Source: a virus
DNA: 64,000 nucleotides
IMG/VR virus record: IMGVR_UViG_3300027771_001853
Location: 1-64,000 of that record
Direction: 5' to 3' (one strand)
In this document: in pieces, positions 2,878 through 34,504 of the stretch
Position numbering within the stretch: the first letter of the stretch is position 1
Layout: the number at the start of each line of letters is the position of its first letter
Notes under the pieces: model-generated
What the model saw: the letters and a program-made list of their open reading frames with translations, nothing else
What the model was told of the DNA's origin: nothing
Database searches by the model: none
Program-made: the position numbers and the translations under genes

Positions 2878-4254
2878 TTAGACTTTTCTATCGTTTCTAT
2901 CCTTAATATTTCGTTTGGAGTAGAACTTGTTGTAGAGTTTCCGAGCTTGGTTGGCTCTCTTATTACGTTTCCTTGGGTTGTTGGATGATGATGGTCTCTC
3001 GAAATTAACCATGAAGGATATAGCAGCGTTTTCTGGGGTGTCAGTATCTAATAGTTTCCTATATGCTTTGTTCTCCTTGTTTTGTAGTTCGTACCACAGA
3101 TATTCTAATTGAGCTGTTGGGTCGGTCACAGTTAACTTCTTATCTCGGGCAAATTGATTTAATCTTAATAGTCTAGATTTATGCCATTGTGCTAACCCCA
3201 TAGATGTCCCACCGTCACCTATAACTCCTGTCTGCCAAGTACCGGCAGACTCCGTTTTAATGTTACCGGCAATACCGGCGGCTTGTGGTGATGTTAAACC
3301 CTTTCCTACAAAGAACTCTATAATTGTATTAGGGTTAACCTTAACTGAACCAGGGTAAAATTTACCACTTAAAGGTAGTACAAAATTAGCGTTTGGGTCT
3401 ACAAGTCCTTGATTCTCAGCGTTTTTAACAGCAGTAGGGTCATTTTCCTGTGGTTTCTTATTCACATTAACTTTATCCTTCATGGCCTTTAACATTTCAG
3501 TTGTGATTACCTCACCAGTATCCGATGGGAAATAATCTCTTTGGAACGCGTTAACCGCTGCTAGTGTTTCAGGACCATATTTACCATCTATACCGAACTC
3601 AGGTAAAATATAATTTCGGGCAATTAAGTCTGTCTGCATTTCTTCTACTTGGCCCTCCATTTCTGTAGGTCCGGAACCACCAGTACATTTACTACCACAC
3701 CCATCCCATAATATAATGGTCCCTTCGTCTCTTTTTACATCTGGTTCATCAACCACACTAGAACTTTCTATATGATGTTCAGGGTCCACCCATTTATTCT
3801 TATACTTTAATCCGAAATGTAAGTGAGCACCTAATGAATTACCAGAACCAGTTTTACCTCTATCACCACCTGTAACACCTATAAGTTGCCCTTTAGTGAC
3901 TTTTTCATTCTTATTAACTTTGATTTGACTCATATGACAATAAGAACTTTTATAACCATTATTATGTTTAATAATTATCATACCACCACAAGCACCACTA
4001 TCTCTATTAATTTTACTAACAGTACCATCTGCTATAGCGAATGCTTGGGTGTAGTCCGCTTTATAATCTGTACCATTATGTGCTCTACATTTTTGACCAC
4101 TTAGACATCGTTTAGGGGAAAACTTACTATTAACACTAAGGCCACCCTTTAATGGAGCACCTAAAACCGCTTCAGATAAAACCTTGATTTTCTTGGGTTT
4201 AAGACTTTCTATTAGAATTTCTAATTGCTCACTACTGATTATTACATTTCCCAT
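2878..4254 (-). CDS. Virion lysin: M23 peptidase + peptidoglycan-binding + tail lysozyme
   Basis: A 458-residue modular murein hydrolase. Residues about 50-160 form an M23 (LytM-like) metallopeptidase with the HNGTDY region and the HLHFG motif. Residues about 195-265 resemble a peptidoglycan-binding helical domain (GIDGKYGPETLAAVNAFQ). Residues about 310-440 resemble a phage tail lysozyme (NIKTESAGTW; GGTSMGLAQWH). Near residue 23 the segment KIKVLSEAVLG matches the [I/L]-x-E leader cleavage pattern found on many proteins here, so the first part may be removed in the prohead. It starts four bases after the giant gene ends, so the two are probably co-transcribed. Likely role: local cell-wall digestion on entry. 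Confidence 0.85.
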   Translation of the reverse strand: MGNVIISSEQLEILIESLKPKKIKVLSEAVLGAPLKGGLSVNSKFSPKRCLSGQKCRAHNGTDYKADYTQAFAIADGTVSKINRDSGACGGMIIIKHNNGYKSSYCHMSQIKVNKNEKVTKGQLIGVTGGDRGKTGSGNSLGAHLHFGLKYKNKWVDPEHHIESSSVVDEPDVKRDEGTIILWDGCGSKCTGGSGPTEMEGQVEEMQTDLIARNYILPEFGIDGKYGPETLAAVNAFQRDYFPSDTGEVITTEMLKAMKDKVNVNKKPQENDPTAVKNAENQGLVDPNANFVLPLSGKFYPGSVKVNPNTIIEFFVGKGLTSPQAAGIAGNIKTESAGTWQTGVIGDGGTSMGLAQWHKSRLLRLNQFARDKKLTVTDPTAQLEYLWYELQNKENKAYRKLLDTDTPENAAISFMVNFERPSSSNNPRKRNKRANQARKLYNKFYSKRNIKDRNDRKV

Positions 4255-4257
4255 ATA

Positions 4258-7200
4258 TTATAAGTATTCAAGTCCGTACCTTCCCACCCCTTGGTACCAC
4301 TTATCCGGTGGTATCATCTCCTTTAATTCTGAATTATCAGCATTTACGTAAGTTTCTAAATCATCCGTCTTGATTCTTCTATTTACGGTCCATTGTTTTA
4401 CAGAACTGTCCGTTTCTACTTCAGTAAACTTAGGGTCTGGACGGTCTACATCATCATCTTCCTTACCAACTGGTTCGTCACTTATTTGCATAGAAATTTT
4501 AATCAGTGTATCATCAGTTTTACCATCATAATCCATAATATTTATCTGGTTTTTCCCCACTTTATCCACAAAAAACACATTACCTCCAGATAAAACGTCC
4601 TCCAATCCAAAATCGGGTTCCCTCGCCTGTCCGTTTCTACGCTTAAACCCTAACCTTTTAAGAATCTCCATAAACTTTATATTGTTATTTTTTCCCCTTC
4701 TTAGTGAATCCTCATCTTCTAATTCATGAAGTAACCAATTATTCATTAATGTGTTAATTTCTTCACCCACATCATCTTCATAACCATAACCATCATAATA
4801 AATGTCAGATAGATTACTCTCAATTTCATTCCAAGGTTCCTTTAACATCTCTGAGAAGTTAGTGACCCCAAACATTTTAATAATCCATAATAGTTGGAGC
4901 CAACTAAGTTTTACAATTGTTTTATCCATATAAAAATCATCCTCAAATAAAAGTTCATCTGAAATGTGTTTGGACATCTCACTTGCTCTATGAGCCCCTA
5001 TACCATACCCTAATGCACTTATTATATCATTTAACACTTCAGTGACATCACCACCACCTATACGTTTCATTGGGTCTAGGATATCACCTTCGCCAGCATC
5101 CCTACTATTTTGTTGTATATATTCCTCATTTCCAGTTAACTCCATTACTTTATTCCAGTTAGCCAACGTATCTTTACTCCAATGTACAGCCGTATAATCA
5201 ACTTCAGTTTCTTCAACATCTTCATAGGGATGGTCGTACGTATTAGTGTCCCTACCAACCTCATAGAAATATAAATCATCGTCCGTTAACAATAACACGT
5301 CCTCCACATACCTATTCTTATCCATACGTATTTCCACACCATTATCCGTTATGTGTATTTGGTCCAATGAAGAAGAATACCCGTATGGGTTGGGTTCGTT
5401 ATCATATGATATAGTGGTGTCTTCACCCGTAAAATCTTCTAATGTATCATAGATATCCTCTTGGTTAGTTACACCTCTTTTTTCCTCATTCACCATAATA
5501 CCGTAGATTGATTTAAGAAAAGTGTCATTGGAAGATTTGTCACTATTTGATGTGGTATTGTTGGTACTGTTCATAAAGCCCTTTATATCCTCACTAGTCC
5601 TTATCATGTTAAATTTAATTTTCTCCCTCTCATCAAATTCTACATTAAAAAACTTGGCTAGTTCTGGTTTATCACTTAGATACCTTTTAAACTCTACCTT
5701 CTCTAAATACTTTAGACTATTCCCCAGCTTTTCGTAGAACGAATAAAAAGGTTTATCACGTAGAAACGGCACTTTTCCCTGATGGTGCATAATGTGAGTC
5801 TTTCTTCTATACCCCTCCTGTTCTTCTGTAATATATATTGTCCCTGTATTTAACAATTTTTTAATAAAATGGTCACCCAATCCTCCACAAACCGACTCAG
5901 AAATTAACGAACAAAAAGATTCTTTATTTAATGGTACCACAACTTTAACTTTACCATTATCGAACATAGTCCTAACCTTAATATTCTTATTTTCGATTTG
6001 TTCATTTAATTGTGGTTCCTTAAAAGTCATCCTACTATTCACCCAATCAGTTAAAATGTTAACCATTAAATCAGCTTCTTCTTGTGGTACTCCACGTTCT
6101 ACCATACCAGGAATTGTTTGGTATAGGACTTCTATCGGCACAAACCCTTCATGGTCGTAAGAATACAATTGCATCTTACCACCATCATAATCTAATTCAC
6201 CTTCTGGGTGTGGATATATACCAAAACTATTATCCAGTGCATCAAATAGTTGTGTGGTTAAGTCTATATTTTTTTTATCTTCTGGTTTGTCATACTGTTC
6301 TTGTAATTGTGAGTATATTTCAGGAAATAACTTACCATAGCTCTTAACCAACCTTCCCGCTAAACTATTAGCTTCATCTTCTATGGGTCCACCTATTTCT
6401 GGATGTGGTTTATCTATTAACCCATCTTCTTTTTGTTTATGGTGGACTAACTCATGAGCAATACTTCTTAATATATCAGCTAATTGTCTTTGGTACCCTC
6501 TAACCTTAACTATTTCTTTTTTATTATTATAGTAACCTGTAGTATATTCGGATGTTGGTTCTACCTCTACTTTAATTGGTGGTGAATTTTTAATCCCTAA
6601 TTCATTCTTAACAAAATCCACAAAATCATTATATCGTGCTTCACTATAAGGGTGGGTGGTATCTATAATATCTATTTGGGATTCACTTAATTCTAATTCC
6701 TCTTGTGTTTGGTATACGTAATCATAAAGTTCATCACCTAATAATTTCCCAAATGCTGAATCACTAGGGTAGTGAACTTTTGCCATGTTACGACTGTACG
6801 CGATATCCTCACCTATTTGTTTAAGTTCATTACCATACTCAGGGTATAAATCTGATAGGTACCTACCTATGAATCTACCTTGAGTAGCGTGACCAGAAGG
6901 GTATGACGGTGTAGAAGCACTCTGTAATGTTTCACTATCTAACGTTAACCCTTTTGCGTTTGCTATTTGCCATGGTCTTGGTCGATTATAGTGGTATTTT
7001 AATTTAAGAACTATAGCTCTCACTCCATTCATTACCTCCTTTATTTCATTAGTTGGGTACTCTAATTGTTTAGAGTTTAGGAAAATTTTAAAGTGTTTGT
7101 CCACATTATCAGCACTCTCAACCAACTCACTATCCACTTTTATGGTATCTAAATAATCTAGTTCTTCCTCAGTCGTATCTGATTCATTTTGTGGTGGTGG

Positions 7201-10200
7201 AATGTTTTTAAAATTATTTATAGGGAACCCGTTTAAACTACCTAAATCCTTACCCATTCTTCTTTTATGTTTATCTTTAGGTTCGTCCCTGAATACTAAA
7301 TCGTTAAGTGATTCATTTAATTCTCCTCTTAAAAATCCTTTTCTTAGTATCCATTGGTCCGCACGGCCAGACTGGGGAAAGGTTTGTGGGGAACTATCTT
7401 TAGGAAAAATATACAGTGGTTTCGCACGTCCTCCACCTGCTAACATAGCACCTGTACGTTGTTCGTCGGTTATGCCCAGAGGTTCAATTTGGTAATAAGG
7501 GTTATCGTAATCAGGACGGTTATCTCTTCTGTTGGGGTCGGAAGCGTTATGATTATACTTAATCCCTACAACCACATAAGGTTTATATAATTCTGGTGCC
7601 CCGAAATCATGAATCCCTTCAGTAGAGACTACTATTATCTCATCACCAACCATTAAATCTGGATTTAAGTTAGATTCTTTATGTTCAGTAATAGCTTGTG
7701 GTGGTTCAGCATAAATCCATGTATCACCTTGGTATAAACGTTTAGGTGAACTATGAATGTTATAACCAGGTTTAAGTGGTTCTGCAGGTTCTAAATAATA
7801 ATATCTTCGGTAGTCTACGTGGAGTTCATTTGTATAGTGGCTATCAGCTATTTCAATTACTCTATAAACACCAAATCTTTCTGGTATACTTTCATCTCTG
7901 CCAATACTCCTATCTTCAACATCAATTACCCTTATAATGTCATCTACTTCTAACTCAGGATTTAATTTAGTTTCTTTATGTTCTTTGATGGTTTTACCCA
8001 CTTTAATCCATGTATCTTCTTGGTACATTCTTTTTATATGCCTCAGGTAGTCACACTTCATCAGCTCTTCACAGTTAACATCTAGTGGTACTAAATCATA
8101 TGTATCAGTACCATCACCATTTCCAGACCATTTTTCATTCATCACCTCCTCTACTTTATACTTTCCCCATTTGTCCGGCATCCATTCAGATGCCATACCA
8201 ATATCAATTACTCTTATAACATCACCTACCTCTAACTTAGGATTTAACTCTGGTTGATTATGTTCACTAAGTGTTAATCTATCCACACCGTTAGCTCTTG
8301 GGGTATTGGTGAGAATCCATTCGTATATCCAAGGGTATAATAGTTTTTCATAACCCTCATAATCTCCGTACCCACTGTCCAAACTTTCTTCATATTCATC
8401 TAATTTGTCTTCTGGAACTAATGTATACCTCCACCTCCACTTTGATTTATGTCCGTTAGATTCTTTATCTACAACAGTATATGGTGTATATTTTGCTGGT
8501 CTCATCTGTTCACTAGGGACATTATATGTTGTTGTGCCATTTTCCCTCTCTCTATCTACATCCACTATGAGTATAGTATCACCATATGTTAATTCAGGAC
8601 TTAACCCTGGTTGTTCGTCGGTTTGTTCGTCCATGTTTCTTCTATTGCCATCATAATATTTGCTTGATTCATTCCCAAGTCCTTCGTCGAATTTACCTGG
8701 TTCACTAAACACAATATGGTCTAAAGTTAAATCCACTGGTAGACCTATTAACACAGAACGTAAATCTTCTTCAATCTCTTCGTATACGTAATTAAGTTGC
8801 TCTTCATATCCATCTTCTCCTAATTCACTTATCTCCCATAAAGATATATCTTGGACGGTACCATCTGGAAAACTTACTGGTAATTCTGTATCCCCATTAA
8901 CTACCACATTCACACTTACATCACCGTTATTGTAGTTGAATATATCACTTACAATATATTCGTATTGCCATTGGTCTTGTAACCCTTCTAATCTATCTTT
9001 TACAATGTTACTTAATTCTTCGTCCCCATAATACTCTTTTAGGTTATCCCAAACCACAGACCTCTCCTCTAAGTTACCCATATTAATCCCCAATAACTTT
9101 AACTTATTCTTGTCTAGTGTTGGCCCCATCTTTCTCCAGAAGTTGAATAGTAGGTCTTGTGTTTTTTTAGGGTCGTTTTGTATAATTTTAGATATTTCCT
9201 CTTCATTTAGTGATGAACCTAATTCATTTAATTCATCATTACTTACTTGACTCAGTCTACCTTCATCGATACCGTACAATTTGAAATAATCATTAAAAAG
9301 TGTCTCGTTTATTTTAAATCTTAAAGCACTTCTATCTAATTCTGACGTTAACCACGCTATTTCACCATTATAAGTGTACTCTGGACTATCCCCTGCATCA
9401 GCAATATCTGTCCAAACTAAATCATAGTCAATTACTGTTATATTTTTCTTCCATAAACTTTTAGAGAATTCCCTCTCATATATGTAAGGGTTAACAATTG
9501 TGAATGTTATCTCCGTTCTAACAATATGTTCCCTACCTAATGTATTCCAGGTTGACCTGTCCATACCACTATCGACGTGTTTAAGACTACCCACATCTAA
9601 CATAACTGGTATTACGTGTGTTGTCCCATCCACAAAACTTGCAAGTCTTTTATGTTTGACCTCCTTACCGGAGAGTTGTGACTCTTGGTTTATAATCTTT
9701 TCTTTCCAATCTTGATTGTGATATGTACGAAACCTTCTAGACTCTTTTAACTCTTTTTCTTCTACCCCTTGTTTAATAGGTAAAGGTGGGTCCAATAAAA
9801 ACTTTTGGTTAAGGTAGTTTCTTAATAGGTTTTCTACGAACCAATCTGGAACTGGTCTACTATCTGGTTCATTCGATGCAACATCCGAGACATATCGGGC
9901 AAATTTAAGTTTATATTTATCCCTAATCATTTGTAAAAGACCATCAGAAATGAAGAATACTTTACCTAATGGGTCATCACCAATAGCGACATCTGGAATA
10001 TAATCTCCTTCTGCAATATCCATCGCCTTTAGTACAACTTTACCCCACCAGGATTTATAACCTTTAGTATCTTTAAGTGCTGGTGTGATTATCTTATTAA
10101 TTGCTCTAGTCGCGGTAACACCAACAGCCGCTAATAATATTTGTGGTATAAAAAATGGTACAATTCTCCAAATAGTTTTAAATAACCCTCTTCCCATATC

Positions 10201-13200
10201 ACCAGTAATTCGTTTCCTAGTTGCCTCCTCAACTAGTTCTCGTAACTGACCAAACGTTATAGGTCCTTGTGCTGAACAAAACCCTTTTACCTTACAAATA
10301 TTATCTGTTACTTCACTGGAAGGTGCTACATACCCTTTAATAGCGTCTGTTTTACCACCAGTATAAACATATTCTGATTCTGGATTGTTACGTTCTACGT
10401 CATCTTCAACATCACTAACTATTTTTTCCCATTCACTATCTTCACCCTCAAAGTCTTCAGGGTCACTTGGTTCTAACATTCCTTGACCAAACACATCCGA
10501 ATCTTCTTTCAAGATGGCAATTTTTTTCGTATTATCTATCTCCAATTCATGGTCGTCAGTATCACCCCACTCATAGGGTTCCATATCAACATCATAATCA
10601 TACCAATGGTTTTGGGCTGTATCTGTTGCATCCTGACTATTATAAGCATTTATTTCTATGGTCCCAGATTCCCATGTTTTTTGCCAATAAGAATTGGTTG
10701 CTTGTACTTCGTATTTTAATGGGTAAGTTTTAATAGCTGTACCAACTTCACTATAATCACAAGGAACATCCTCCGCAGCATAACACCCTTCATTCCAATT
10801 ATCTATTGCCCATTTAGCGAATCTTGTTGAACTAGCGTAGTAACCTCCATCATATTGAGTAGGTATACCAAAAAGTTTTATATTTTTAATCCACTCATCA
10901 TCTGGTATTTCCAAATTAGAAATAATATAATTCAATTTATCTTTAGTAAAAATTTTAGTGATGAAATTTAAAATTTTAACTTCGTTGTTGGTTAGTGGTT
11001 CGTATATAGAATAATCTTCAGACTCTTTATCATCCCCTTCATTATCTGGTGTAAGCCAATCACCTGTGTTAGCCTCTGTTAGTATCATAGGTTTTTCGTC
11101 CAACCATTTATCTATTCTTTCCATCAGTTTTAGAAACTCAACACCAGTTACTTCTGTGTCATAGCTTTCATAATCACCATAATCGGTAACCTCAGTCTCT
11201 CCTCCCCAATCCCAAAACTCATCATTTCCTTTATCTGTTGCGTCATTTTCGTCATACGCTAAAAGAGTGACCTCACCTCTTTTGTATTCTACTTGGGAAC
11301 CACTTTCATCCCTTGTAACTGTATACCATTTTAGTGGGGTTCTAATTGGTGCACTTATATCTTTATAGTCCCCGTCTTCTGTAGCTTTATCCCAGTTATC
11401 TAGTGCAAGTTTAGCGAACTGTGAATGTTTTGCGTTATCATCAAAATTATTTGCCTTAGTTATACCAAATAATTTTAAGTATTTAAAATATTTGTTTGCC
11501 GAACCATAATTATGTGGTGTTTCAGTGGTTAAATCTTGTAGTTCAGTTCTAGTAAAATTTCTGTAAAGCATTTTTAAAATACTAAGTTCAAAATTTGTAA
11601 AAGGGTGGGTTTCTGAATTGATTTGGTTTATTAGCTCCTCATCATGATGTTTATCGGCTGACCAATCCTCCTGTTCAACAATAGAATGACCACTTGCACC
11701 AGGTAACTTTTCGTGTTGGGATTGGGTTAATTTTTGTTCATCTGACAAGTCTGGTTCGTAAGTTAATTCAGTCAACCTATCACTTAGTGTTTCATTTATG
11801 TCATAGTCTGGCTGCCAATATCCGTCATACCATCGTGTATCTACTTGTAAACATTCACCTCTTTTTCCCTCACAATACTCACCCATCATAAATTCTTCTT
11901 CAACTAACATACCAAATAGTGCTGTTGCGTTGATTTCGTGGCTATGCATGTCGTTTATCATGATACTTTCTATGGTTTCTCCAATATAATCTGTGTGGTA
12001 TTCAAACACATCTTCAGTATTATCCCATTTATCATTTATCCAATCTCTAAGGTCACTATTAATAGTCCAGCTTATTCTACCGTTGTCATCTCGGTTTATT
12101 TTACCGTATTCCTGAAAATGTTCTGCTAATTTATCTTCAATATCATTACCCATCGCATTTAATGTAGCGTATGTTGATTCGTCATTGTTTGCCCACAATA
12201 TGTAGTGTTGGATATCGTCTATTTCTCCTTCGTATTTTTCTATTAGTTCTTCTTCCTCTTCGTTTTGTGGTTGTTCAGATAGTATGTGTTCTGCAACTTC
12301 CTGAGATACACCACCAAAAATACTACTAATAGTTTTCCAATTACTTTCATCAATTTGGTCTGTCATGTAAGTGTCCCACTCAAAATTAAACCAATCTTCC
12401 GTTTCGTTAAATTCGTCATCACCACATAAGTATTGTTTAATATACTCATCTTTTCCAATCTCTATCTCAAATAGATTTGATAGGTCATCACAATTAAGAG
12501 TATAAGATACTGGAATAGGGGTTTGACTAAATTGGATGTATCTTTTTAATAACATTGACATTAGTAAGTCTATACCCTCTGTTAAACCAAGCAGTTTTAA
12601 CACACCAACATCTACCCCTCTCTTATCCCATTGTCTAAAAATCACTTCAACCATATTGTCTGGTAGGGAATCCTCAACATGTTTAATTTCATCATCATCT
12701 AAATGACCTACAGGGTATTTAAATTCTCCTGTTGGCCACATTTTTATTTGCTTACTGTCTTGTTCCAACATTCTTTCACCTTCCCCATTAAATCTTTCCT
12801 TCTTTACACCTACTAAGCTTTTAAGAAAAATCCCTAGGTAATATACAGTATCACCTTCGTTTTCTTCTTCAAATTCTACAACTTCCCCCTGTTTATTATC
12901 AGGAAAGTGTTCCCAAATTTGTGCTTCATCTTCGTCTGTGTAGTCATCCGTTTGTTCATCAAATATAAGAAAATTACCATCTGTCCCCTCATCTAACATC
13001 ATCAATATATCATCATAATCGTGCGTAGTCGACATGTCAACATCAGGTATACATAAAACCTCAACATGATTATATGGGTAAAAATAAACCTCAGTAGTTA
13101 GAGTATAGTACTCAACACACTCACAATCATCGTCTTGGATGTTTAGATTTATCTCATTTTCATCACACTCAACCTCCACGATAGACCCATCAGGTCTTAC

Positions 13201-15018
13201 AACTTCTTTTTCTTGTCTTTTACAATCACACTCTTCACCACTAAGTTCACCATAACCATCTTCATCACAATCTTCATCCCGTGCAAAAGAGGTAAATTCT
13301 CCTTTATAAGTTATATAATACCTCATAAACTCATCCGGCACCACTAAATTATCTGGTGGACCATCATAACTTTGATTCAAATGGTTTAAAGTTAACCATA
13401 CTACTTGTGCTGATTCTTTTTGGCCTCTAGGAAAACTAAAATACTGAACTAGGACATCCCAGAAATTGGTGAATGTGTACTTTCCTCCACGTCTCCTTTC
13501 CATCATTTTATAGACTGTTTTTAGGATAGAGTGTAGTTTTGGGTGGGTGTATCCGTTGTATGATAAATCAGCTTCATTTAGGTTTCCCTTAGTTTTAGTT
13601 CTTTCTAACTCAAACTCATCATCTTCCCAGTCATTCTTTCTTTGTTCACCCTCGTCATTATAATCAGAAGCTCCTGTGTCTACTAATTTAATTACGTTTG
13701 GGTACGTAGGTTGTTTTAGATATTCGGTAACGGGAACTCCTGCACGTTCTAATTCTTTCATAAAATTATAAAGGGTGTAGTAATCTTGTTTTAAGGTCCC
13801 ATTAATCATTTCACCTCTTTCGTCTGGTGGAAACTCATCCATACATTTTCCCAGTCCAGATTCGTCAACACCATCCTCACCACAATAATGTTTAAACTCC
13901 TCAACTATATCTTCATATACATCAAATAACAATATTGCGTGTACCCAATCTAAGTTTGTATTATCTATTATCTCTAATCGGTCGTTGAGTGTTGGTAATC
14001 CAGCATCATCTATTACTCTTTTAGTGTCTTCCCATTCTTCCTCCTCTTTATTAAATTTGGTGATGGAATTACCTCTAAAGTCATAGTGATATGTGTCGGA
14101 CCAATCTACACTAGAATTTAAAAGTCCTAATTTCTTTCCATCATGAACTGCATCTGCAACAGTCTCCAAAGCATCCTCAAAGTTACCACCTGGTCTATTA
14201 AAACTTTCTACATATGCTGATGGGTGATAGGTGTTGTATAAGTTACTATATAACTGGTTACGGTATTTAGGCCATATAGACGTTAAGAACTTCTTAGTTA
14301 GTTCAGTTTCGGTTGACCCTTCAGTTATCTTTTGTTTTATGTCTTTAGTTTTTACCCATTTAACTTCACTTTCTACCAGGTTAAACGTTTTTGGGTGCAT
14401 GGTAACAGATTCTAGTAGGGTATCACTTTCGTTAACTGTGACTGGCATCCCACCATCCTCAAAACCAATAACTAATAAAGATTCATTTAATAAATCACTG
14501 TTAGATTCTAATTTAGTTTCTATTATTTTTACAGTATCACCAACATTAACTACGGGATTTACCACTTCGTTGGTTGGGCTTTCTTCTAGATATTTTAGGT
14601 AATTAGCCCAATTTAGTTCTGCCTTTGCTGAAGATACCTCATCTGGGTCTTTGTCATACCCACCTTTACGGTTTTCTTCTTTTTTATCTGGGTCTTGTAA
14701 GTGATGAGTGTATTCGTGTAATAAGGCTTTAATGATGTCTTCTTTATCTTTCATATTAGGGTAATATACGAATATCTTATTTTCATATACATCGTATTGT
14801 GCTTTTGACGTTTGACTTTCTTCTCCTTCCATCTCTGGAATACCACTTAATCTAGCATAGATATCCTTCCATAATTCAACTGTAGGTGTTCCATCCACAT
14901 ACATACTTTTACCTAAGTCGTTTACGATATGTGGGTACACTTTATCTATAATATCCTGTACAACGTATTGTTGGTCGATATCGTACTGTAATTCTGAGTC
15001 TAATATTTGTTTATTCAT
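4258..15018 (-). CDS. Giant multidomain virion-type protein (about 3,590 aa)
   Basis: The start is set at 15018 (MNKQILDSELQYD); an in-frame ATG at 15066 would add 16 residues. Visible parts from the N-terminus: a zinc-protease-like HEYTHH motif (residue about 101); beta-rich NPxVxVGD repeats near residue 157 and four more at about 2143-2450; acidic, Cys-containing stretches; two copies of a KLFGI/DNW/AYDxxDATD domain near 1180 and 1380; a hydrophobic segment (IVPFFIPQILLAAVGV) near 1630; a PAP2-type phosphatase signature (NRPRPW, PSGH, SRNMAKVHYPSD) near 2660-2760; and a second HELVHH motif near 2856. Strings such as ILTEAN and ILKEDS resemble prohead-protease sites and could split it. No whole-length family is recognised. 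It precedes the lysin gene, consistent with an injected or tail-associated virion protein. Confidence 0.85.
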   Translation of the reverse strand: MNKQILDSELQYDIDQQYVVQDIIDKVYPHIVNDLGKSMYVDGTPTVELWKDIYARLSGIPEMEGEESQTSKAQYDVYENKIFVYYPNMKDKEDIIKALLHEYTHHLQDPDKKEENRKGGYDKDPDEVSSAKAELNWANYLKYLEESPTNEVVNPVVNVGDTVKIIETKLESNSDLLNESLLVIGFEDGGMPVTVNESDTLLESVTMHPKTFNLVESEVKWVKTKDIKQKITEGSTETELTKKFLTSIWPKYRNQLYSNLYNTYHPSAYVESFNRPGGNFEDALETVADAVHDGKKLGLLNSSVDWSDTYHYDFRGNSITKFNKEEEEWEDTKRVIDDAGLPTLNDRLEIIDNTNLDWVHAILLFDVYEDIVEEFKHYCGEDGVDESGLGKCMDEFPPDERGEMINGTLKQDYYTLYNFMKELERAGVPVTEYLKQPTYPNVIKLVDTGASDYNDEGEQRKNDWEDDEFELERTKTKGNLNEADLSYNGYTHPKLHSILKTVYKMMERRRGGKYTFTNFWDVLVQYFSFPRGQKESAQVVWLTLNHLNQSYDGPPDNLVVPDEFMRYYITYKGEFTSFARDEDCDEDGYGELSGEECDCKRQEKEVVRPDGSIVEVECDENEINLNIQDDDCECVEYYTLTTEVYFYPYNHVEVLCIPDVDMSTTHDYDDILMMLDEGTDGNFLIFDEQTDDYTDEDEAQIWEHFPDNKQGEVVEFEEENEGDTVYYLGIFLKSLVGVKKERFNGEGERMLEQDSKQIKMWPTGEFKYPVGHLDDDEIKHVEDSLPDNMVEVIFRQWDKRGVDVGVLKLLGLTEGIDLLMSMLLKRYIQFSQTPIPVSYTLNCDDLSNLFEIEIGKDEYIKQYLCGDDEFNETEDWFNFEWDTYMTDQIDESNWKTISSIFGGVSQEVAEHILSEQPQNEEEEELIEKYEGEIDDIQHYILWANNDESTYATLNAMGNDIEDKLAEHFQEYGKINRDDNGRISWTINSDLRDWINDKWDNTEDVFEYHTDYIGETIESIMINDMHSHEINATALFGMLVEEEFMMGEYCEGKRGECLQVDTRWYDGYWQPDYDINETLSDRLTELTYEPDLSDEQKLTQSQHEKLPGASGHSIVEQEDWSADKHHDEELINQINSETHPFTNFELSILKMLYRNFTRTELQDLTTETPHNYGSANKYFKYLKLFGITKANNFDDNAKHSQFAKLALDNWDKATEDGDYKDISAPIRTPLKWYTVTRDESGSQVEYKRGEVTLLAYDENDATDKGNDEFWDWGGETEVTDYGDYESYDTEVTGVEFLKLMERIDKWLDEKPMILTEANTGDWLTPDNEGDDKESEDYSIYEPLTNNEVKILNFITKIFTKDKLNYIISNLEIPDDEWIKNIKLFGIPTQYDGGYYASSTRFAKWAIDNWNEGCYAAEDVPCDYSEVGTAIKTYPLKYEVQATNSYWQKTWESGTIEINAYNSQDATDTAQNHWYDYDVDMEPYEWGDTDDHELEIDNTKKIAILKEDSDVFGQGMLEPSDPEDFEGEDSEWEKIVSDVEDDVERNNPESEYVYTGGKTDAIKGYVAPSSEVTDNICKVKGFCSAQGPITFGQLRELVEEATRKRITGDMGRGLFKTIWRIVPFFIPQILLAAVGVTATRAINKIITPALKDTKGYKSWWGKVVLKAMDIAEGDYIPDVAIGDDPLGKVFFISDGLLQMIRDKYKLKFARYVSDVASNEPDSRPVPDWFVENLLRNYLNQKFLLDPPLPIKQGVEEKELKESRRFRTYHNQDWKEKIINQESQLSGKEVKHKRLASFVDGTTHVIPVMLDVGSLKHVDSGMDRSTWNTLGREHIVRTEITFTIVNPYIYEREFSKSLWKKNITVIDYDLVWTDIADAGDSPEYTYNGEIAWLTSELDRSALRFKINETLFNDYFKLYGIDEGRLSQVSNDELNELGSSLNEEEISKIIQNDPKKTQDLLFNFWRKMGPTLDKNKLKLLGINMGNLEERSVVWDNLKEYYGDEELSNIVKDRLEGLQDQWQYEYIVSDIFNYNNGDVSVNVVVNGDTELPVSFPDGTVQDISLWEISELGEDGYEEQLNYVYEEIEEDLRSVLIGLPVDLTLDHIVFSEPGKFDEGLGNESSKYYDGNRRNMDEQTDEQPGLSPELTYGDTILIVDVDRERENGTTTYNVPSEQMRPAKYTPYTVVDKESNGHKSKWRWRYTLVPEDKLDEYEESLDSGYGDYEGYEKLLYPWIYEWILTNTPRANGVDRLTLSEHNQPELNPKLEVGDVIRVIDIGMASEWMPDKWGKYKVEEVMNEKWSGNGDGTDTYDLVPLDVNCEELMKCDYLRHIKRMYQEDTWIKVGKTIKEHKETKLNPELEVDDIIRVIDVEDRSIGRDESIPERFGVYRVIEIADSHYTNELHVDYRRYYYLEPAEPLKPGYNIHSSPKRLYQGDTWIYAEPPQAITEHKESNLNPDLMVGDEIIVVSTEGIHDFGAPELYKPYVVVGIKYNHNASDPNRRDNRPDYDNPYYQIEPLGITDEQRTGAMLAGGGRAKPLYIFPKDSSPQTFPQSGRADQWILRKGFLRGELNESLNDLVFRDEPKDKHKRRMGKDLGSLNGFPINNFKNIPPPQNESDTTEEELDYLDTIKVDSELVESADNVDKHFKIFLNSKQLEYPTNEIKEVMNGVRAIVLKLKYHYNRPRPWQIANAKGLTLDSETLQSASTPSYPSGHATQGRFIGRYLSDLYPEYGNELKQIGEDIAYSRNMAKVHYPSDSAFGKLLGDELYDYVYQTQEELELSESQIDIIDTTHPYSEARYNDFVDFVKNELGIKNSPPIKVEVEPTSEYTTGYYNNKKEIVKVRGYQRQLADILRSIAHELVHHKQKEDGLIDKPHPEIGGPIEDEANSLAGRLVKSYGKLFPEIYSQLQEQYDKPEDKKNIDLTTQLFDALDNSFGIYPHPEGELDYDGGKMQLYSYDHEGFVPIEVLYQTIPGMVERGVPQEEADLMVNILTDWVNSRMTFKEPQLNEQIENKNIKVRTMFDNGKVKVVVPLNKESFCSLISESVCGGLGDHFIKKLLNTGTIYITEEQEGYRRKTHIMHHQGKVPFLRDKPFYSFYEKLGNSLKYLEKVEFKRYLSDKPELAKFFNVEFDEREKIKFNMIRTSEDIKGFMNSTNNTTSNSDKSSNDTFLKSIYGIMVNEEKRGVTNQEDIYDTLEDFTGEDTTISYDNEPNPYGYSSSLDQIHITDNGVEIRMDKNRYVEDVLLLTDDDLYFYEVGRDTNTYDHPYEDVEETEVDYTAVHWSKDTLANWNKVMELTGNEEYIQQNSRDAGEGDILDPMKRIGGGDVTEVLNDIISALGYGIGAHRASEMSKHISDELLFEDDFYMDKTIVKLSWLQLLWIIKMFGVTNFSEMLKEPWNEIESNLSDIYYDGYGYEDDVGEEINTLMNNWLLHELEDEDSLRRGKNNNIKFMEILKRLGFKRRNGQAREPDFGLEDVLSGGNVFFVDKVGKNQINIMDYDGKTDDTLIKISMQISDEPVGKEDDDVDRPDPKFTEVETDSSVKQWTVNRRIKTDDLETYVNADNSELKEMIPPDKWYQGVGRYGLEYL

Positions 15019-15037
15019 TACTTTTTTCTTATCTTTG
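15006..15037 (+). promoter_or_regulatory. Bacteroidota-type promoter for the HAD gene
   Basis: TTTG (15006-15009), a 20-base spacer and TATCTTTG (15030-15037) match the known Bacteroidota -33/-7 consensus. It points at the gene at 15111, leaving a leader of about 70 bases, and overlaps the start of the divergent giant gene. Confidence 0.65.
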
Positions 15038-15110
15038 TATTGTAGTTCAACATACAATAAATACATCGGAACTACAGCTATTTTTATAAATATTAACTAA
15101 TACACATTAT

Positions 15111-15545
15111 ATGGATTTATATCTCTTCGATTTCGACAATACTTTAGTTCAAACCCCTTATCCCGACTCTATATATTATATGGACAGAAAAGAAAGTTTA
15201 AATGATTCCCGTTGGGAATTTAAAATTAACCAAGAAGTAAAATCATATTATGATAAAGCTAAGAAAAATAATAATAATAGGGTAGTCTTATTATCTAATA
15301 GAGTTAGGGAAGTTGAAAAACCTTTAAGGGAGTTACTATCTAGACTTGGGTATGTGTTTGACGATTATCTTTTAATCGAGAATGGTGAGAGGTCTAAAGC
15401 TAAAAGACTATTAGACTACTTGGAGATTATAGATGAGGTGAAGAACATTCACTATTGGGAAGATAAAGATAAACACATAAAGGACGTTTCAGAAAATGTA
15501 CCTGAAAAGTATGGTGTTGGTGTGACTGTTCACAAAGTTACTTAA
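15111..15545 (+). CDS. HAD-superfamily phosphatase (144 aa)
   Basis: The N-terminal FDFDNTLVQTP carries the DxDxT nucleophile motif of HAD hydrolases, followed by LLSNR (motif II) and YWEDKDKH (motif IV-like acidic pair). Size and order resemble the stand-alone HAD domains linked to nucleic-acid end repair (the phosphatase half of polynucleotide kinase). It is one of few rightward genes, has its own host-type promoter and overlaps the end of the convergent kinase gene by eight bases. A 3'-phosphatase role with that kinase is possible but unproven. Confidence 0.75.
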   Translation: MDLYLFDFDNTLVQTPYPDSIYYMDRKESLNDSRWEFKINQEVKSYYDKAKKNNNNRVVLLSNRVREVEKPLRELLSRLGYVFDDYLLIENGERSKAKRLLDYLEIIDEVKNIHYWEDKDKHIKDVSENVPEKYGVGVTVHKVT

Positions 15546-16227
15546 CCTTCTCTATTGTTTCGTGAGGTCTACTAGCTAAATCGTACGGACTATCATTGTT
15601 AACGACCCACACATGATTAAACTTATCTACCATATTACCTATATTATCACTAACCAATTGGTGGTAACTGGTTACCATTTCAGGTGATAGACTCCTACTC
15701 CTTTTTTCATTTCTTTCATGAGCTACACCCAAACTAGTTTTAACATAAATTAAAGTAGTTTCGTAACCATTGTCGTTAGCTAACCTCCAAACATCTTCCA
15801 TAACTTTTTGTTGTCCACCCCCAGCATCAAACACCACATTGGGTAACTCTTTCCTATCTTGTTCTAAAAATTGTTTAAGAAACCTAACCGTTACATTTCT
15901 AGGGTCAGAGGTGGTGAATGATTGACTAAGAATTTCTTGATATCCTTCTGGTGTGGATATGTTAGCTTCCCAATTATCACCCCATAGTTTCTTTGCTAAC
16001 TGAACTCGGTAGTTATCAACATTAAATTCTTTTATGTTAGGTAAATCTATTAGATTTCTAGAGACAAAACTTTTACCAGCACCTGGTCCACCAACTACCA
16101 CTATAAAATTATTATCTAGTCTATCAAACCCAACTACTTTAGCCTCAGTCATTAATATTTTTTCAATCTGTGATTCCGTCACCATAATATTAAATGGACC
16201 TTTCTTTTTCTTAATTAAGTTCTTCAT
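15538..16227 (-). CDS. P-loop kinase with capsid-type leader (229 aa)
   Basis: A Walker A motif (GGPGAGKS, residues about 47-54) and an AAA/zeta-toxin-like layout (FNVDNYR; VFDAGGGQQ; ERNEKRSR) indicate a small-molecule or polynucleotide kinase. Upstream of the P-loop, QIEKILMTEAK matches the leader and cleavage pattern of its neighbours. It overlaps the superoxide dismutase gene, so they share a transcript. Zeta-toxin kinases phosphorylate UDP-activated sugars, whereas T4-Pnk-like enzymes act on nucleic acid; the sequence does not settle which fits. Confidence 0.75.
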   Translation of the reverse strand: MKNLIKKKKGPFNIMVTESQIEKILMTEAKVVGFDRLDNNFIVVVGGPGAGKSFVSRNLIDLPNIKEFNVDNYRVQLAKKLWGDNWEANISTPEGYQEILSQSFTTSDPRNVTVRFLKQFLEQDRKELPNVVFDAGGGQQKVMEDVWRLANDNGYETTLIYVKTSLGVAHERNEKRSRSLSPEMVTSYHQLVSDNIGNMVDKFNHVWVVNNDSPYDLASRPHETIEKVK

Positions 16228-16870
16228 ATTTCTCCGATACTTTATCCCAGTTAACCACCTTCCAAAAGTTGTTTATATATTTTTTTCTATCCGACATGTA
16301 ATTTAAATAGTAAGCGTGTTCCCACACATCTAAACCCAATAATGGTTCTCCAAGATTATCCATTAAGGGGTTGTCTTGGTTTGGTGTGGTAACTATTTTA
16401 AGTCTACCGTTTTTTAAAACCAACCAACACCAACCAGAACCAAATACTTTTCCAGAGTCTTCATCAAATTGTCTTTTAAAATTATCTAAACTACCAAAAT
16501 CTTTATTTATCTTAGTTTTTAACTCTTTAGATAGTTTTGTTTTATCTGGTGTTATATAATCTCTAAAAAATAAACTATGGTTATAATAACCACCAGCATT
16601 ATTTCTAGTAAATGCATCATAACTCTTAATGCCTTTAATTATCTTTTCGATATCTTTGGTGGGATTTTTTCTTTTAGATAATGCTTCGTTTAGTTTAGTC
16701 GTATACCCTTTATAGTGTTTATTGTAGTGTTCCCACATTGTTTCATAACCCACAAAGTCTTTTACAGAATTGTAGTCGTAAGGTAAAGTAACTCTTTTGA
16801 AGAATGTTTTCTTAGCTTCTGTTAATAAAGTACTTCTTAATATTTTTTTAATTAAATTATTCATCACCAT
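16211..16870 (-). CDS. sodB: Fe/Mn superoxide dismutase with N-terminal leader
   Basis: Family landmarks are all visible: WEHYNKHYKGY (first metal His), GGYYNHSLFF (second His), GSGWCWLV and LDVWEHAYYLNY (Asp and last His). It disproportionates superoxide. Before the enzyme core it carries NNLIKKILRSTLLTEAKK, a leader ending in LLTE-A like the other packaged candidates, in place of the usual short N-terminus. A second ATG at 16864 overlaps the previous stop (TGATG) and is the likelier start. The absence of a signal peptide argues against export. It lies in a tight operon with leader-bearing genes. Confidence 0.9.
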   Translation of the reverse strand: MVMNNLIKKILRSTLLTEAKKTFFKRVTLPYDYNSVKDFVGYETMWEHYNKHYKGYTTKLNEALSKRKNPTKDIEKIIKGIKSYDAFTRNNAGGYYNHSLFFRDYITPDKTKLSKELKTKINKDFGSLDNFKRQFDEDSGKVFGSGWCWLVLKNGRLKIVTTPNQDNPLMDNLGEPLLGLDVWEHAYYLNYMSDRKKYINNFWKVVNWDKVSEKYEELN

Positions 16871-29055: not shown

Positions 29056-30936
29056 TTAACTTAATTCTACCCATGTTTTATCTGGGTCAAACCATATTTG
29101 CCCGTTTACACTATCCATCACATATCCAACTATTCTAACAAATGTACCAGTATAATTTAATGATGCGTCGTTATCAGTAACAAATCCACTAGTCTTACTT
29201 ATGTATATTGGGTTACTTATCGTACCCGGGTCATACGTTAGTGTGTAATACCCTTTAATTAAAAAACCACCTGAACTATTAGTTTCCAAAGCAATACCTA
29301 AGAATCCTTTACTTAAATTAGGTACATCAGCATCAGATTTTACCCAAGTTCCCCCAGTTAAACAATACAGACTTCCTTTATCTACTGAGTATTCATTACC
29401 ATACGGGTCATACAATACGTCACCCATATATCGGTTGTTGGTTGCACTTGGTGCAGAAAATGTTCTCACACCTTGTATTGTAGCACCACTTATATTACCT
29501 GAGGCTATCACATTGGTAGTATTTACATTAGCTATAGTTCCTACTGTTAACTTATCTTGAATATTAAGTGTAACTGCTGATAATGTGGAACCAGAAATAA
29601 AAGAATTAGACATAAAACTGTTAGATACCATATCACCCTTTACCTCTATTCGGTCTGTGGTGTTTCTACCTAACCTCAACCCATCAATAGTATTTGAATT
29701 ACCTAACAAGATAACGTTTTGTTCATCGTCTGTACTTAGACTTGCAAATGTTTCTTGGCCTAGTAAATAAGAGTTCGCGATAACCTTACCACCTACAAAA
29801 GCATTATTAGAGGTATAAACAGTTGCTGCTGATAATGTAGTAGCAGAGATAAGTCCTGAGATTACCGCTTGACTGGGACTACCATTCCCACCTATTCTTA
29901 GGTTAGGCATGGACCCTAACGTTTTATCACTATCCTTCCAAACTGTAAATTGATTAGCTGTTATAGGACCAACCTTATCTACAGCAGAAGAACCAGATAA
30001 TGAGGCTTTTGTTAAAAATAAGTTCTGTAATTTACTAGACCCACTATATATTGTCCCATTAATATACACATCAGTAGTAGCACTCACACCACCAATAACC
30101 GTTAATTTTTGATTGGGTGTTGTTGTTCCAATACCAACATCTCCGGCTCCAGTTACACTTAACCTATTAGTGTTGTTAGTCCATATAGAATATGGATTGT
30201 TTCCATACACATAAGTATTGAAATCTGATATTGAACCAGATGCCCCAATGATATTATAGGTATTACTAAAAAGAGCATTTGCTGCACTACCATTTCTAAA
30301 TTGTAAATTACCACCATTAGTTAAACTTATTTTTACATTTCCATCTACTTGTAGTTTTTCTGTTGGTTCTGTTGTTCCAATACCAACATTTCCATTAGCA
30401 AGAATTCTCATTTTATCAGTTGCATCAACTTGAAATTGCATATATGATGAATTTGCTACTATTCTTGAATTACTACTCCAAGATAAATATTGATTATCAC
30501 TTATAGTTAATTTTCCACTAAATTTTCCAGTCCCTACAACATCAAGTTTTGTTGTTGGCGAACTCGTTCCAATACCAACATTCCCAGTTAAACCACTGTT
30601 TGAGTAGTTTCCATTACCGTCGGTTGACCAGTACGAAACTGGTACATTAATAGTTGTACCACTAGTGGTGTGTAATTTAAGGACCGTATCGTCCATCGTG
30701 GCAGCAGAAATATAAATGTCACCACTTACTGTAAGTTGTGACCAAGTAGCGTTTCCGGCCACATCAGATTTTAGGAAGTAACCACCTTCTTGGTTACCAT
30801 CCACATATCTTAAGTTCCCATTAACAATAAGGGGGTTAGGGGTTGTACCTTGTAGGTTTTGTACATTTCCAGCTGAGTCTGCCTGTAATAGCAGTTGGTA
30901 TGTATTTTTTATTTTAAGGTTTGATAAATCAGCCAT
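29056..30936 (-). CDS. Large tail-fibre protein (626 aa)
   Basis: Repeated GNVGIGTSSPTTKLDV and VGIGTTEPTEKLQVDG blocks and beta-helical Ser/Thr/Asn-rich segments are characteristic of phage fibres and related surface adhesins. A C-terminal region (GNEYSVDKGSLYCLTGGTW) may be the receptor-binding or trimer-forming end; no endosialidase chaperone domain is evident. It heads the fibre block. Confidence 0.82.
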   Translation of the reverse strand: MADLSNLKIKNTYQLLLQADSAGNVQNLQGTTPNPLIVNGNLRYVDGNQEGGYFLKSDVAGNATWSQLTVSGDIYISAATMDDTVLKLHTTSGTTINVPVSYWSTDGNGNYSNSGLTGNVGIGTSSPTTKLDVVGTGKFSGKLTISDNQYLSWSSNSRIVANSSYMQFQVDATDKMRILANGNVGIGTTEPTEKLQVDGNVKISLTNGGNLQFRNGSAANALFSNTYNIIGASGSISDFNTYVYGNNPYSIWTNNTNRLSVTGAGDVGIGTTTPNQKLTVIGGVSATTDVYINGTIYSGSSKLQNLFLTKASLSGSSAVDKVGPITANQFTVWKDSDKTLGSMPNLRIGGNGSPSQAVISGLISATTLSAATVYTSNNAFVGGKVIANSYLLGQETFASLSTDDEQNVILLGNSNTIDGLRLGRNTTDRIEVKGDMVSNSFMSNSFISGSTLSAVTLNIQDKLTVGTIANVNTTNVIASGNISGATIQGVRTFSAPSATNNRYMGDVLYDPYGNEYSVDKGSLYCLTGGTWVKSDADVPNLSKGFLGIALETNSSGGFLIKGYYTLTYDPGTISNPIYISKTSGFVTDNDASLNYTGTFVRIVGYVMDSVNGQIWFDPDKTWVELS

Positions 30937-32098: not shown

Positions 32099-34504
32099 CT
32101 AAAATTTAGTTTTTAACGAAATTATCACATTCCTTCCTGGTGCTGATATACCTGAAGCAAATGTTCGGTAGTGCTGGTCTAGAATATTTTCTAGACTTAA
32201 TTGTAATTTAACTTTTTTGTTAAATTTATATTGAATTGAGCTATTGAGTACCCACCAAGAAGGGTACCCTTCATCGGTACCTAAATCCTCATTGTCTACC
32301 CCAGTCGAGTTCATTTCCTCAATATGTTTCCATGCAGTATAAATACCCCATATATTGTACTCTAACTTACCAGTCTTAATCTTAAATAAAGATTTACCAT
32401 ACCCTGGAGGTATATGACCTAGAGGTTCATTATTAGATACATCATAACCTCTTTGCCATGTGAATGATTCTTCGTAGAATAACCATGAATTTAATTTAGA
32501 TTTTACTCCGAATGACCAACCATATATGTAAGCTTCTGGTGAGTTCATTAATGATTGTACATTCAATTCTTCATCTTCATGTATTTGTGTGTAACCTAAA
32601 TCATGTTTTACTATCGCGTCTTTAAGGTGAGTATAGAATACGTTACCTGTTGTTTGCATTCTTTTTTTCTTCCAAGTAATACTCATTTCACCATTATAAG
32701 CGTACTCTGGTGTTAAATCAGGGTTAGGTACAACCATATTACCTTTTTTAACAAATACTTTACCATAATCATCTATATTGGGATTTCTAAAACCTGATGA
32801 TGTTACCCAATCAAACTTCCATTTTTTAGATGGTTTATAAATTAAATTAAGATTACCAGTTAATGCTCCGTTGTTGAACTCTATCTGGTCTGTAACAAAT
32901 ACTGGGTCCGTATCTCTGAATACCATATCACCAAGTACTCTTGAGTATCTTAGTCCTGCATTCCATACTATATGTTCGTTAACCTCTTTCTTGTATGAAC
33001 CATATAAAGCTGCTGTAGATAGGTTACTACCACCTGATGGGTACCTTGACTGTGTACCTTCAGTAGAGGTTGATAGTACGTTATTGTGTGTTAATTCCAT
33101 ACCGTAAACTAAATTGTCTAATGAAAAGTCCCAGTTAAAGCTAAACACATCCACATCTATGTATGTGTTATTATATTCATCTGATAGATATTTTCTAGTT
33201 ATCCTATCTTCTTCTATAAATTGGTATGCTAATGTGATGTTATGACTGTTAAATAATTTACTGGAAGTGTAAGTGTTTATATCAATAGATGACATAAATC
33301 TTGTTTGGGGACCATATGACCATTCACTCCATGTTAAGTAACCGTCTTTATACTCCTGTAAGTTATCGTACCTAGGTATGTTTGTTGTTGTAGAAAATTG
33401 GTTATTAAACCTCAAAAACACATTTTCAGATATTCTCCATGATGTATTGTTTAATAGGTCTATTTGTTTATACCCTGTACCGACTTGTGTATTTGGGTCC
33501 GTATTTTCAACCATCACACCATCTTCCATATAATGATTAACTAATCCCCAGTCAGTATAACCATGTGGTCTCCACTCCCCCATTTTTAAATCACCATATT
33601 GTTTTAAAGTAACTGAAAAGAAATTAGCTAGATTATCACCACCTATATTATTATCAACATGAATAGAAGATTCGTTAGCAGCGGTACCATATCTAAGTTC
33701 CGCACTAGTTTTAATGAATATCTTATCATTTTTACTAAACTCAGGTTTCTTTGTGTAGAAATGTACTACACCACCTAAGGCATCACTTCCATAGATTGTT
33801 GATGATGGTCCAAATACTACCTCAACTATCTCTAAAGCGTTTGGGTCTACTGTTAATGCGTTCTGTAGGTGACCTGAACGATATATAGCGTTATTCATTC
33901 TAACACCATCAACCACAAGTAAAACCCTATTAGCTTCAAACCCTCTTATGATTGGTGAACCACCACCTAATTGAGATTTCTGAATGGTTAGTCCTTGTGT
34001 TGCTGTTAGTAGGTCAGCTGTGGTAGATTGGTTTGCGTTTTCTATTTGTATAACATCAAGAGATTGTATCTGATAAGCTACATTTTCTCTTAACTCTCTT
34101 ACTTTACTAGCTGAGATTACAACATCATCTAAGTATTCCGATGATTGGTGCAATAGAATTACATAATCTTTCTTAAGCATTTCTTGTTTGGTTATGTGTC
34201 GTGTTTCATAACCAATAAAAGAAATTGATAATAAAATAACATCTGACTTAAATAAAGATAAGTCTGCTCGGCCATCTATATCTGTAGTAGTTCCTTTCAC
34301 TATAGAGTCTCTGAATGTCGTATTACTTCCAGGACTAATAAGTAATTGTTTAGAGATTATATTAGCAAATGGTATAGGTTCTAATGTTTGTTGGTCTTTT
34401 AGGGTTAATGTCTGACCACAAACCGAACCCGAACATATAAGTAAAAAGAGGATTAACAAATATCCTCCAAATAGTTTTAATTGTATTTTAGTCATCTCCC
34501 TCAT
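32099..34504 (-). CDS. TonB-dependent outer-membrane receptor (801 aa)
   Basis: A signal peptide (residues about 10-30) leads to a carboxypeptidase-regulatory-like domain (DQQTLEPIPFANI; DIDGRADLSLF), a plug (GLTIQKSQLGGGSPIIRGFE; LLVVDGVRMNN; STIYGSDALGGVVHF) and a beta barrel ending in an aromatic residue (ISLKTKF). It is full length for the family, which imports haem, cobalamin, siderophores or glycans with TonB energy. The next gene upstream overlaps it by four bases. An intact copy in a phage is unusual. Possible roles are nutrient capture, receptor exchange or superinfection exclusion. Confidence 0.92.
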   Translation of the reverse strand: MREMTKIQLKLFGGYLLILFLLICSGSVCGQTLTLKDQQTLEPIPFANIISKQLLISPGSNTTFRDSIVKGTTTDIDGRADLSLFKSDVILLSISFIGYETRHITKQEMLKKDYVILLHQSSEYLDDVVISASKVRELRENVAYQIQSLDVIQIENANQSTTADLLTATQGLTIQKSQLGGGSPIIRGFEANRVLLVVDGVRMNNAIYRSGHLQNALTVDPNALEIVEVVFGPSSTIYGSDALGGVVHFYTKKPEFSKNDKIFIKTSAELRYGTAANESSIHVDNNIGGDNLANFFSVTLKQYGDLKMGEWRPHGYTDWGLVNHYMEDGVMVENTDPNTQVGTGYKQIDLLNNTSWRISENVFLRFNNQFSTTTNIPRYDNLQEYKDGYLTWSEWSYGPQTRFMSSIDINTYTSSKLFNSHNITLAYQFIEEDRITRKYLSDEYNNTYIDVDVFSFNWDFSLDNLVYGMELTHNNVLSTSTEGTQSRYPSGGSNLSTAALYGSYKKEVNEHIVWNAGLRYSRVLGDMVFRDTDPVFVTDQIEFNNGALTGNLNLIYKPSKKWKFDWVTSSGFRNPNIDDYGKVFVKKGNMVVPNPDLTPEYAYNGEMSITWKKKRMQTTGNVFYTHLKDAIVKHDLGYTQIHEDEELNVQSLMNSPEAYIYGWSFGVKSKLNSWLFYEESFTWQRGYDVSNNEPLGHIPPGYGKSLFKIKTGKLEYNIWGIYTAWKHIEEMNSTGVDNEDLGTDEGYPSWWVLNSSIQYKFNKKVKLQLSLENILDQHYRTFASGISAPGRNVIISLKTKF

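Follow-up and report, generated by a model that had tools for sequence, protein, structure and literature searches.

Bacteriophage T4 packages internal head proteins and Alt as cargo, and its cargo proteins carry N-terminal capsid-targeting sequences (CTS) of 10-19 residues which are removed by the prohead protease gp21 (PMC9026906). The published cleavage motif of gp21 is L/I-x-E, and in T4 processing is blocked when Asp takes the place of the Glu (PMC9026906). In the large phages phiKZ and SPN3US, inner-body and ejection proteins are packed in the head and cut after Glu by a gp21-like protease (gp175/gp245) (PMC5694885, PMC10052503). Iyer et al. (2017) described another group, the polyvalent proteins, such as DarB and DdrB of phage P1, with a published set of 131 domains; their processing has been proposed to occur mainly by zincin-like metallopeptidase domains or by a C-terminal assemblin-like domain (PMC5512222).

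A giant open reading frame, P0001, was analysed against this background. It is proposed, with a probability of about 0.75 and on the basis of sequence comparison, to encode a head-cargo polyprotein which would be cut by a gp21-like S77 protease at L/I-x-E and whose pieces would be ejected together with the DNA. No description of a cargo polyprotein processed by the head protease of T4-type phages was found in the open library searched, which is not proof of novelty.

The giant open frame and its genome

The window, the whole stretch of 64 kb that was analysed, comprises bases 1-64000 of a 297,623-base (297.6-kb) virus record with a T4-type genome; beyond it, the gene content of the record was taken from one 20-kb stretch. 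ORF translation of the window gives P0001 as a single open frame of 3602 codons on the minus strand (Table 1), and the plus strand of the same interval is full of stops. The frame originally predicted at 4258-15018 is real, but it lies on the minus strand and extends to 15066; the shorter version had been begun at Met17, which is preceded by an A-rich stretch and may be the true start. The landmarks named for it were recovered: HEYTHH at residue 117, HELVHH at residue 2871 (2855 when numbered from Met17), a complete PAP2 signature (K2688, PSGH at 2723 and SRNMAKVHYPSD; Pfam PAP2 E=6.9e-8), both of the suggested sites ILTE↓A (1331) and ILKE↓D (1521), where the arrow marks the predicted cut, and the neighbouring lysin. 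Each of the two sites terminates one copy of a duplicated module, and the internal repeat families were borne out by the module comparison.

Table 1. Modules of P0001 (by residue) and other features of the window; sites are written with an arrow at the predicted cut.
Feature	Residues	Window position	Strand	Site or remark
Giant ORF P0001, proposed head-cargo polyprotein	3602 aa	4258..15066	-	modules single or reshuffled in relatives
Zincin-like HEYTHH module with one SH3/KOW-like repeat	1-249	14320..15066	-	then KITE↓G
HExxH of HEYTHH module		14701-14718	-	
Module	250-498	13573..14319	-	then NLNE↓A
Region	499-1131	11674..13572	-	then SIVE↓Q; homologous stretches in L100a, L101, L107
Repeat module A, copy 1	1132-1331	11074..11673	-	end ILTE↓A; comparison with relatives
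Repeat module A, copy 2	1332-1521	10504..11073	-	end ILKE↓D; comparison with relatives
Hydrophobic-segment module	1522-1775	9742..10503	-	end ELKE↓S; most conserved module
Region and first GDxI (SH3/KOW-like) repeat	1776-2268	8263..9741	-	end TLSE↓H
Three GDxI-family repeats	2269-2585	7312..8262	-	TIKE↓H (2362), AITE↓H (2461), ELNE↓S (2585)
PAP2 phosphatase-like module	2586-2795	6682..7311	-	end ELSE↓S; Pfam, fold, 19 homologous modules
HELVHH IrrE/ImmA(M78)-like module	2796-2923	6298..6681	-	then QLQE↓Q; HExxH at 6439-6456
C-terminal part	2924-3602	4261..6297	-	possible sites QLNE↓Q (3022), LISE↓S (3057)
Lysin (M23, PG-binding, phage tail lysozyme domain)		2878..4254	-	downstream of P0001; leader-like N-terminus ...KIKVLSE↓A
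Four genes upstream of P0001		15538..18398	-	leader-like N-termini: LMTE↓A (AAA_33 kinase-like), LLTE↓A (Fe/Mn superoxide dismutase), ILEE↓T, VLRE↓E
Kinase-like P-loop protein (AAA_33, weak zeta-toxin match)		15538-16227	-	leader-like MVTESQIEKILMTE↓A
Fe/Mn superoxide dismutase (Pfam Sod_Fe_C 8e-41)		16211-16870	-	leader-like N-terminus MNNLIKKILRSTLLTE↓A
Tail-fibre-like gene		29056-30936		
TonB-dependent receptor (6e-27)		32099-34504	-	phage-encoded
Secreted protein, type IX secretion sorting domain (2.8e-11)	1321 aa	39355-43320	-	phage-encoded
DUF2828/DUF7788 protein		48483-49916	-	PHROG 'RNA-binding protein' (7e-152)
DHH phosphoesterase-like protein (weak)		51115-52539	-	leader-like N-terminus, ILLKE↓S
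Phage lysozyme		52552-53160	-	leader-like N-terminus, LLVEE↓T
Glutamine synthetase (Gln-synt_C 8e-15)		57191-58219	-	phage-encoded; same N-terminal sequence in L101, L107 homologues

The record encodes the head genes that such a scheme calls for. The prohead protease is T4-type and gp21-like (Peptidase_S77, E 1.5e-26; region G000:240342-240809 of the record), and the capsid protein is of the gp23 type (E 1.3e-63); ORFs of their cluster were read by eye as genes for portal, scaffold and terminase. Proteins related to the capsid protein occur on at least 599 contigs. Ahead of its conserved core the capsid protein has the predicted cleavage site LINE↓A, and each of the 81 sequences compared has an LxE site there, L014 with LINE↓Q. 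Of the 24 records of relatives, 14 yielded an S77 protease, and most of the others are fragments.

A bacterium of the Bacteroidota is the probable host: among the products of the window are a TonB-dependent receptor and a protein bearing a type IX secretion sorting domain. Bacteroidota-like signal peptides were also seen on further window genes (34671, 35225, 36557, 38280, 47581 and 61070). The 64-kb window contains no tRNAs. The superoxide dismutase of the window is a candidate head-packed protein, judged by its leader-like N-terminus.

Module exchange and the L/I-x-E motif

In related phages, segments of P0001 occur as separate genes or reordered within proteins of 515-3039 aa. These relatives were reached through the hydrophobic module, the HELVHH module and the PAP2 alignment; a peptide-pattern search returned no full-length relatives of P0001, and the whole PAP2 and whole HEYTHH segments, used as single queries, found none. 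In closer relatives the shuffled modules make up giant proteins of 938-3039 residues. In locus L100 the order is repeat A, PAP2 and hydrophobic module, compared with repeat A twice, hydrophobic module, repeats, PAP2 and HELVHH in P0001. The PAP2 module forms a 202-residue protein by itself in G009 and stands alone in many more loci. The hydrophobic module shares 62-75% identity among fused relatives and is free-standing in proteins of 204-253 aa in L105, L106, L108, L109 and phages of 635-735 kb; in L105 this protein has 204 residues and bears a leader, and in a 735-kb phage it has 237 residues. A protein of G001 opens with the counterpart of the module at residues 250-498 and matches residues 253-495. 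For the C-terminal part, a relative was detected for residues 2924-3044 only (L102, 26%).

Most of 31 loci, cyanophages among them, encode the HELVHH module as a small protein of its own, and such stand-alone proteins are often without a leader. In L100, L103 and L104 the module is the first domain of a leader-bearing protein of 415-436 residues encoded next to the giant gene, which a tagged lysin adjoins there as it does here. Fusions at the motif occur as well: LTE↓G links the module to a P-loop kinase-like one in L125, L136 and L137, and LNE↓Q links it in L139 to an apparent superoxide dismutase, identified by eye from its motifs. Both of these fusion partners are single tagged genes in the window, directly upstream of P0001.

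Leaders close to that of T4 IPIII were observed elsewhere. In a 735-kb phage (L010:9842-10555 and neighbours), several proteins begin with the T4-IPIII-like leaders MKNYKQFVNE, MIKDYKLFRVFEELTE and MDYMKSYKDKLNE, and these N-termini suggest that megaphages use capsid-targeting leaders. In Synechococcus phage S-SRM01, a cytidyltransferase with the N-terminus MKNFHQFITE↓A (L008:6599-7921) lies two genes away from a stand-alone HELVHH homolog.

The placement of the motif was measured against shuffled and altered motifs. In eight giant proteins [LI]xEQ was counted 34 times versus 7.3 expected from shuffles (z=10.2), and the control [LI][NKTSR]D[AQSTE] stayed at chance level. [LI]xE was located within 8 residues of 62 of the 109 module (alignment) boundaries versus 26.8 by chance, with none of 2000 random shifts as high, and within P0001 alone [LI]xE[QASHTDNG] was located within 6 aa of 13 of the 39 boundaries versus 4.9 (p=6e-4); these p-values are optimistic, because boundaries drawn from homologous proteins are not independent. 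The control [LI]xD did not follow the boundaries (18 versus 25.8 expected near the 109; 4 versus 7.7 in P0001), nor did [AVFYWM]xE in P0001 (7 versus 9.5). The charged control [DEKRNQSTGPH]xE showed a slight excess (28 versus 21.5), so the linkers are somewhat Glu-rich, and on these counts the Leu/Ile requirement is what sets the boundary signal apart.

The same pattern was found at repeats and leaders. [LI]xE occurs within 22 aa upstream of 20 of the 24 GDxI repeat starts in the eight giant proteins (6.8 at random; [LI]xD 0 versus 6.3), and directly upstream of all 19 distinct PAP2 modules (10.3 by shuffle). The PAP2-preceding site of fused copies (LNE↓SLNDLVF in P0001) shares its alignment column with that of stand-alone copies, where it closes the leader (MDDLINKIVE↓ETIDSMVY in L144, MSIKKIIRE↓ELESMVY in L145). 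Likewise, the end of the N-terminal leader MYTLKEIRKILNIQE↓Q (ILNIQE↓Q) in L100 and L104 is the aligned counterpart of SIVE↓Q, an internal site of P0001. Within small genes, residues 5-38 contain [LI]xE at twice the frequency of the bodies; the ratio is 7.7 for [LI]xEQ and 0.9 for [LI]xD. Over residues 2-36 of all window genes the count was barely above shuffled sequence (30 versus 26), a weak measure because most genes are untagged. Plain [LI]xE is present in 63 copies in P0001, many of them within domains, and since the motif is short, common and often inside domains, the exact cut list of P0001 is a prediction. The N-terminus of P0001 itself (MNKQILDSELQ...) shows no clear leader, which is the main gap for its entry into the prohead.

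PAP2 and zinc-peptidase-like modules

The PAP2 signature spans residues 2688-2777 and all three parts of it, KxxxxxxRP, PSGH and SRxxxxxHxxxD, are matched; the Pfam match passes the curated cut-off and the catalytic residues are invariant across four aligned homologs. Residues 2586-2930 were modelled with AlphaFold2 from a 23-row alignment (pLDDT 82.8), rows of the annotated phage collection being left out of the alignments used for folding. The PAP2 part of the model matches the PhoN/PhoC class A acid phosphatases (Foldseek E 7.4e-5; TMt at most 0.60 to PhoN), and the module is thus predicted to fold like these soluble enzymes, with a putative phosphatase activity. Residues 2586-2795 resemble them in predicted fold and catalytic motif; the P0001 module differs in having no secretion signal and in sitting within a phage polyprotein. 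In the model, the last PAP2 helix finishes at the ELSE↓S site (2795), and an unstructured linker (model residues 212-223) follows immediately.

In the HELVHH module, H76, E77, H80, E101, A104 and N105 are invariant over 19 aligned homologs, and the third ligand is Glu. Seven of these 19 homologs match Peptidase_M78 (best E 8.9e-4). The P0001 module itself gives E 0.06 against Pfam M78 and does not reach the cut-off, so it is called M78-like and not a member. Its fold matches in BFVD and PDB are to phage IrrE-like proteins (TMt 0.76) and, weakly, to PprI. The likeness to IrrE/ImmA/PprI consists of HExxH...E-x-x-A-N, the weak Pfam M78 match and the fold. Support for HEYTHH is weaker than for HELVHH; the module is 56% identical to an L102 module bearing HEHTH and matches Pfam DUF3920 below the cut-off only. 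The hydrophobic module contains one hydrophobic segment (maximum KD19 1.91); its AlphaFold2 model reached pLDDT 44 and a profile search matched no solved structure.

ImmA and PprI act by cleavage of regulators. By analogy, it may be guessed that the M78-like peptidase of P0001 cleaves a host regulator, and, equally as a guess, that the PhoN-like phosphatase acts on nucleotides or lipid phosphates.

Proposed head cargo, alternative readings and known systems

Starting from the protease and capsid genes, the modularity, the motif at module edges, the predicted PAP2 fold and the conserved zinc-binding residues found here, a route of cleavage, packaging, ejection, enzymatic activity and action on the host is proposed from comparison of sequences. 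P0001 would be made as a single chain of about 10-14 modules or pieces and built into the prohead core. During head maturation the S77 prohead protease would cut it after L/I-x-E, giving two zinc-peptidase-like modules, the PhoN-like PAP2 phosphatase, SH3/KOW-like repeats, the conserved hydrophobic-segment module and others. The freed modules would stay in the head and then be ejected into the host with the DNA. L/I-x-E would thereby double as the leader end on single cargo proteins and as the linker in fused ones, and cargo genes could therefore be joined, split and reshuffled at these sites.

The original prediction had placed an injected or tail polyprotein here, with ILTE↓A and ILKE↓D among its release sites, and a use in host takeover. 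Its core, a polyprotein that would be freed by proteolysis and injected, is well supported by comparison (the fit of the motif, the S77 gene in the genome, module edges, leaders and controls), but for a tail protein there is no indication, the host-takeover role is only putative, and the comparison favours head cargo. A structural protein of the tail or baseplate, or one acting at the cell surface, with the motif coincidence as a by-product of charged linkers, is considered highly improbable. The adjacent lysin does bear a phage tail lysozyme domain, and a tail-fibre-like gene lies further along the window. However, the lysin has a leader-like N-terminus of its own, P0001 has no tail family match along its full length, and motifs altered to [LI]xD, [VMFAYW]xE and others do not track the boundaries. 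It is also conceivable that P0001 is injected uncleaved as a multidomain polyvalent protein, in which the modules act joined and the L/I-x-E linkers are leftover leaders of fused tagged genes; this is regarded as unlikely, yet less so than the tail reading. In polyvalent proteins, enzyme domains of disparate kinds occur together with zincin-like peptidases, and injection is inferred for them (PMC5512222); some, e.g. ArdC and TraC1, travel whole. The stand-alone PAP2 copies carry their leaders at the same column as the fused site, so a fusion would bring the site along. The site before 20 of the 24 tandem repeat units, where no leader is needed, and the strong LxEQ enrichment speak against leftover leaders, although incomplete cleavage is still compatible with both.

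Least probable of all is cleavage of P0001 by its own zinc-peptidase modules in place of the prohead protease. Such self-processing has been put forward for P1 DdrB and other polyvalent proteins (PMC5512222), and P0001 holds two HExxH modules. Against this, the giant chains of L100, L103 and L104 contain the same sites without HExxH, which among the giant chains is found only in P0001 and L102, and the sites have the motif of the S77 protease; in those three loci, a separate nearby gene does encode HELVHH.

Extending the preferred head-cargo polyprotein reading, it appears somewhat more probable than its opposite that T4-type jumbo phages share a 'cargo grammar', in which a protein preceded by L/I-x-E is carried singly with a leader or strung with others, and the head protease yields injected enzymes in equal copy. 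If so, tailed phages would have a head-delivered polyprotein payload that recombines between cleavage sites, and large phages a route to deliver equal doses of several enzymes. The giant, seemingly featureless proteins of many uncultured T4-type jumbo phages would be explained as strings of head-delivered proteins, and cut sites, mature ends and candidate injected effectors, as modules bounded by L/I-x-E, could be read from sequence.

Among known systems, the T4 internal head proteins and Alt are alike in the S77 protease, gp23, short leaders ending in L/I-x-E (here on single genes and on the L100 and L104 relatives) and cargo genes beside late genes (PMC9026906). T4 cargo is encoded by one gene per protein and cut once or twice near the ends, whereas P0001 has many modules per chain, with predicted internal sites. 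Polyvalent proteins share with P0001 the single chain, the disparate enzyme domains, the zincin-like peptidases and the inferred injection (PMC5512222). P0001 contains PAP2, two HExxH modules and repeats, in agreement with the polyvalent criterion of at least two disparate domain types; no match to polyvalent domains was found in it among Pfam 2025 families. It differs in the separate T4-type prohead protease and in the sites at almost every module edge. The phiKZ and SPN3US proteins are likewise head-packed cargo of large phages, but long propeptides are removed from them and no splitting into many retained modules has been described (PMC5694885, PMC10052503), unlike what is proposed for P0001. 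The scheme for P0001 would thus combine T4 cargo (CTS and gp21) with the polyvalent-protein idea; it differs from the latter in that the protease is a separate one of the head, whose predicted sites lie where modules meet.
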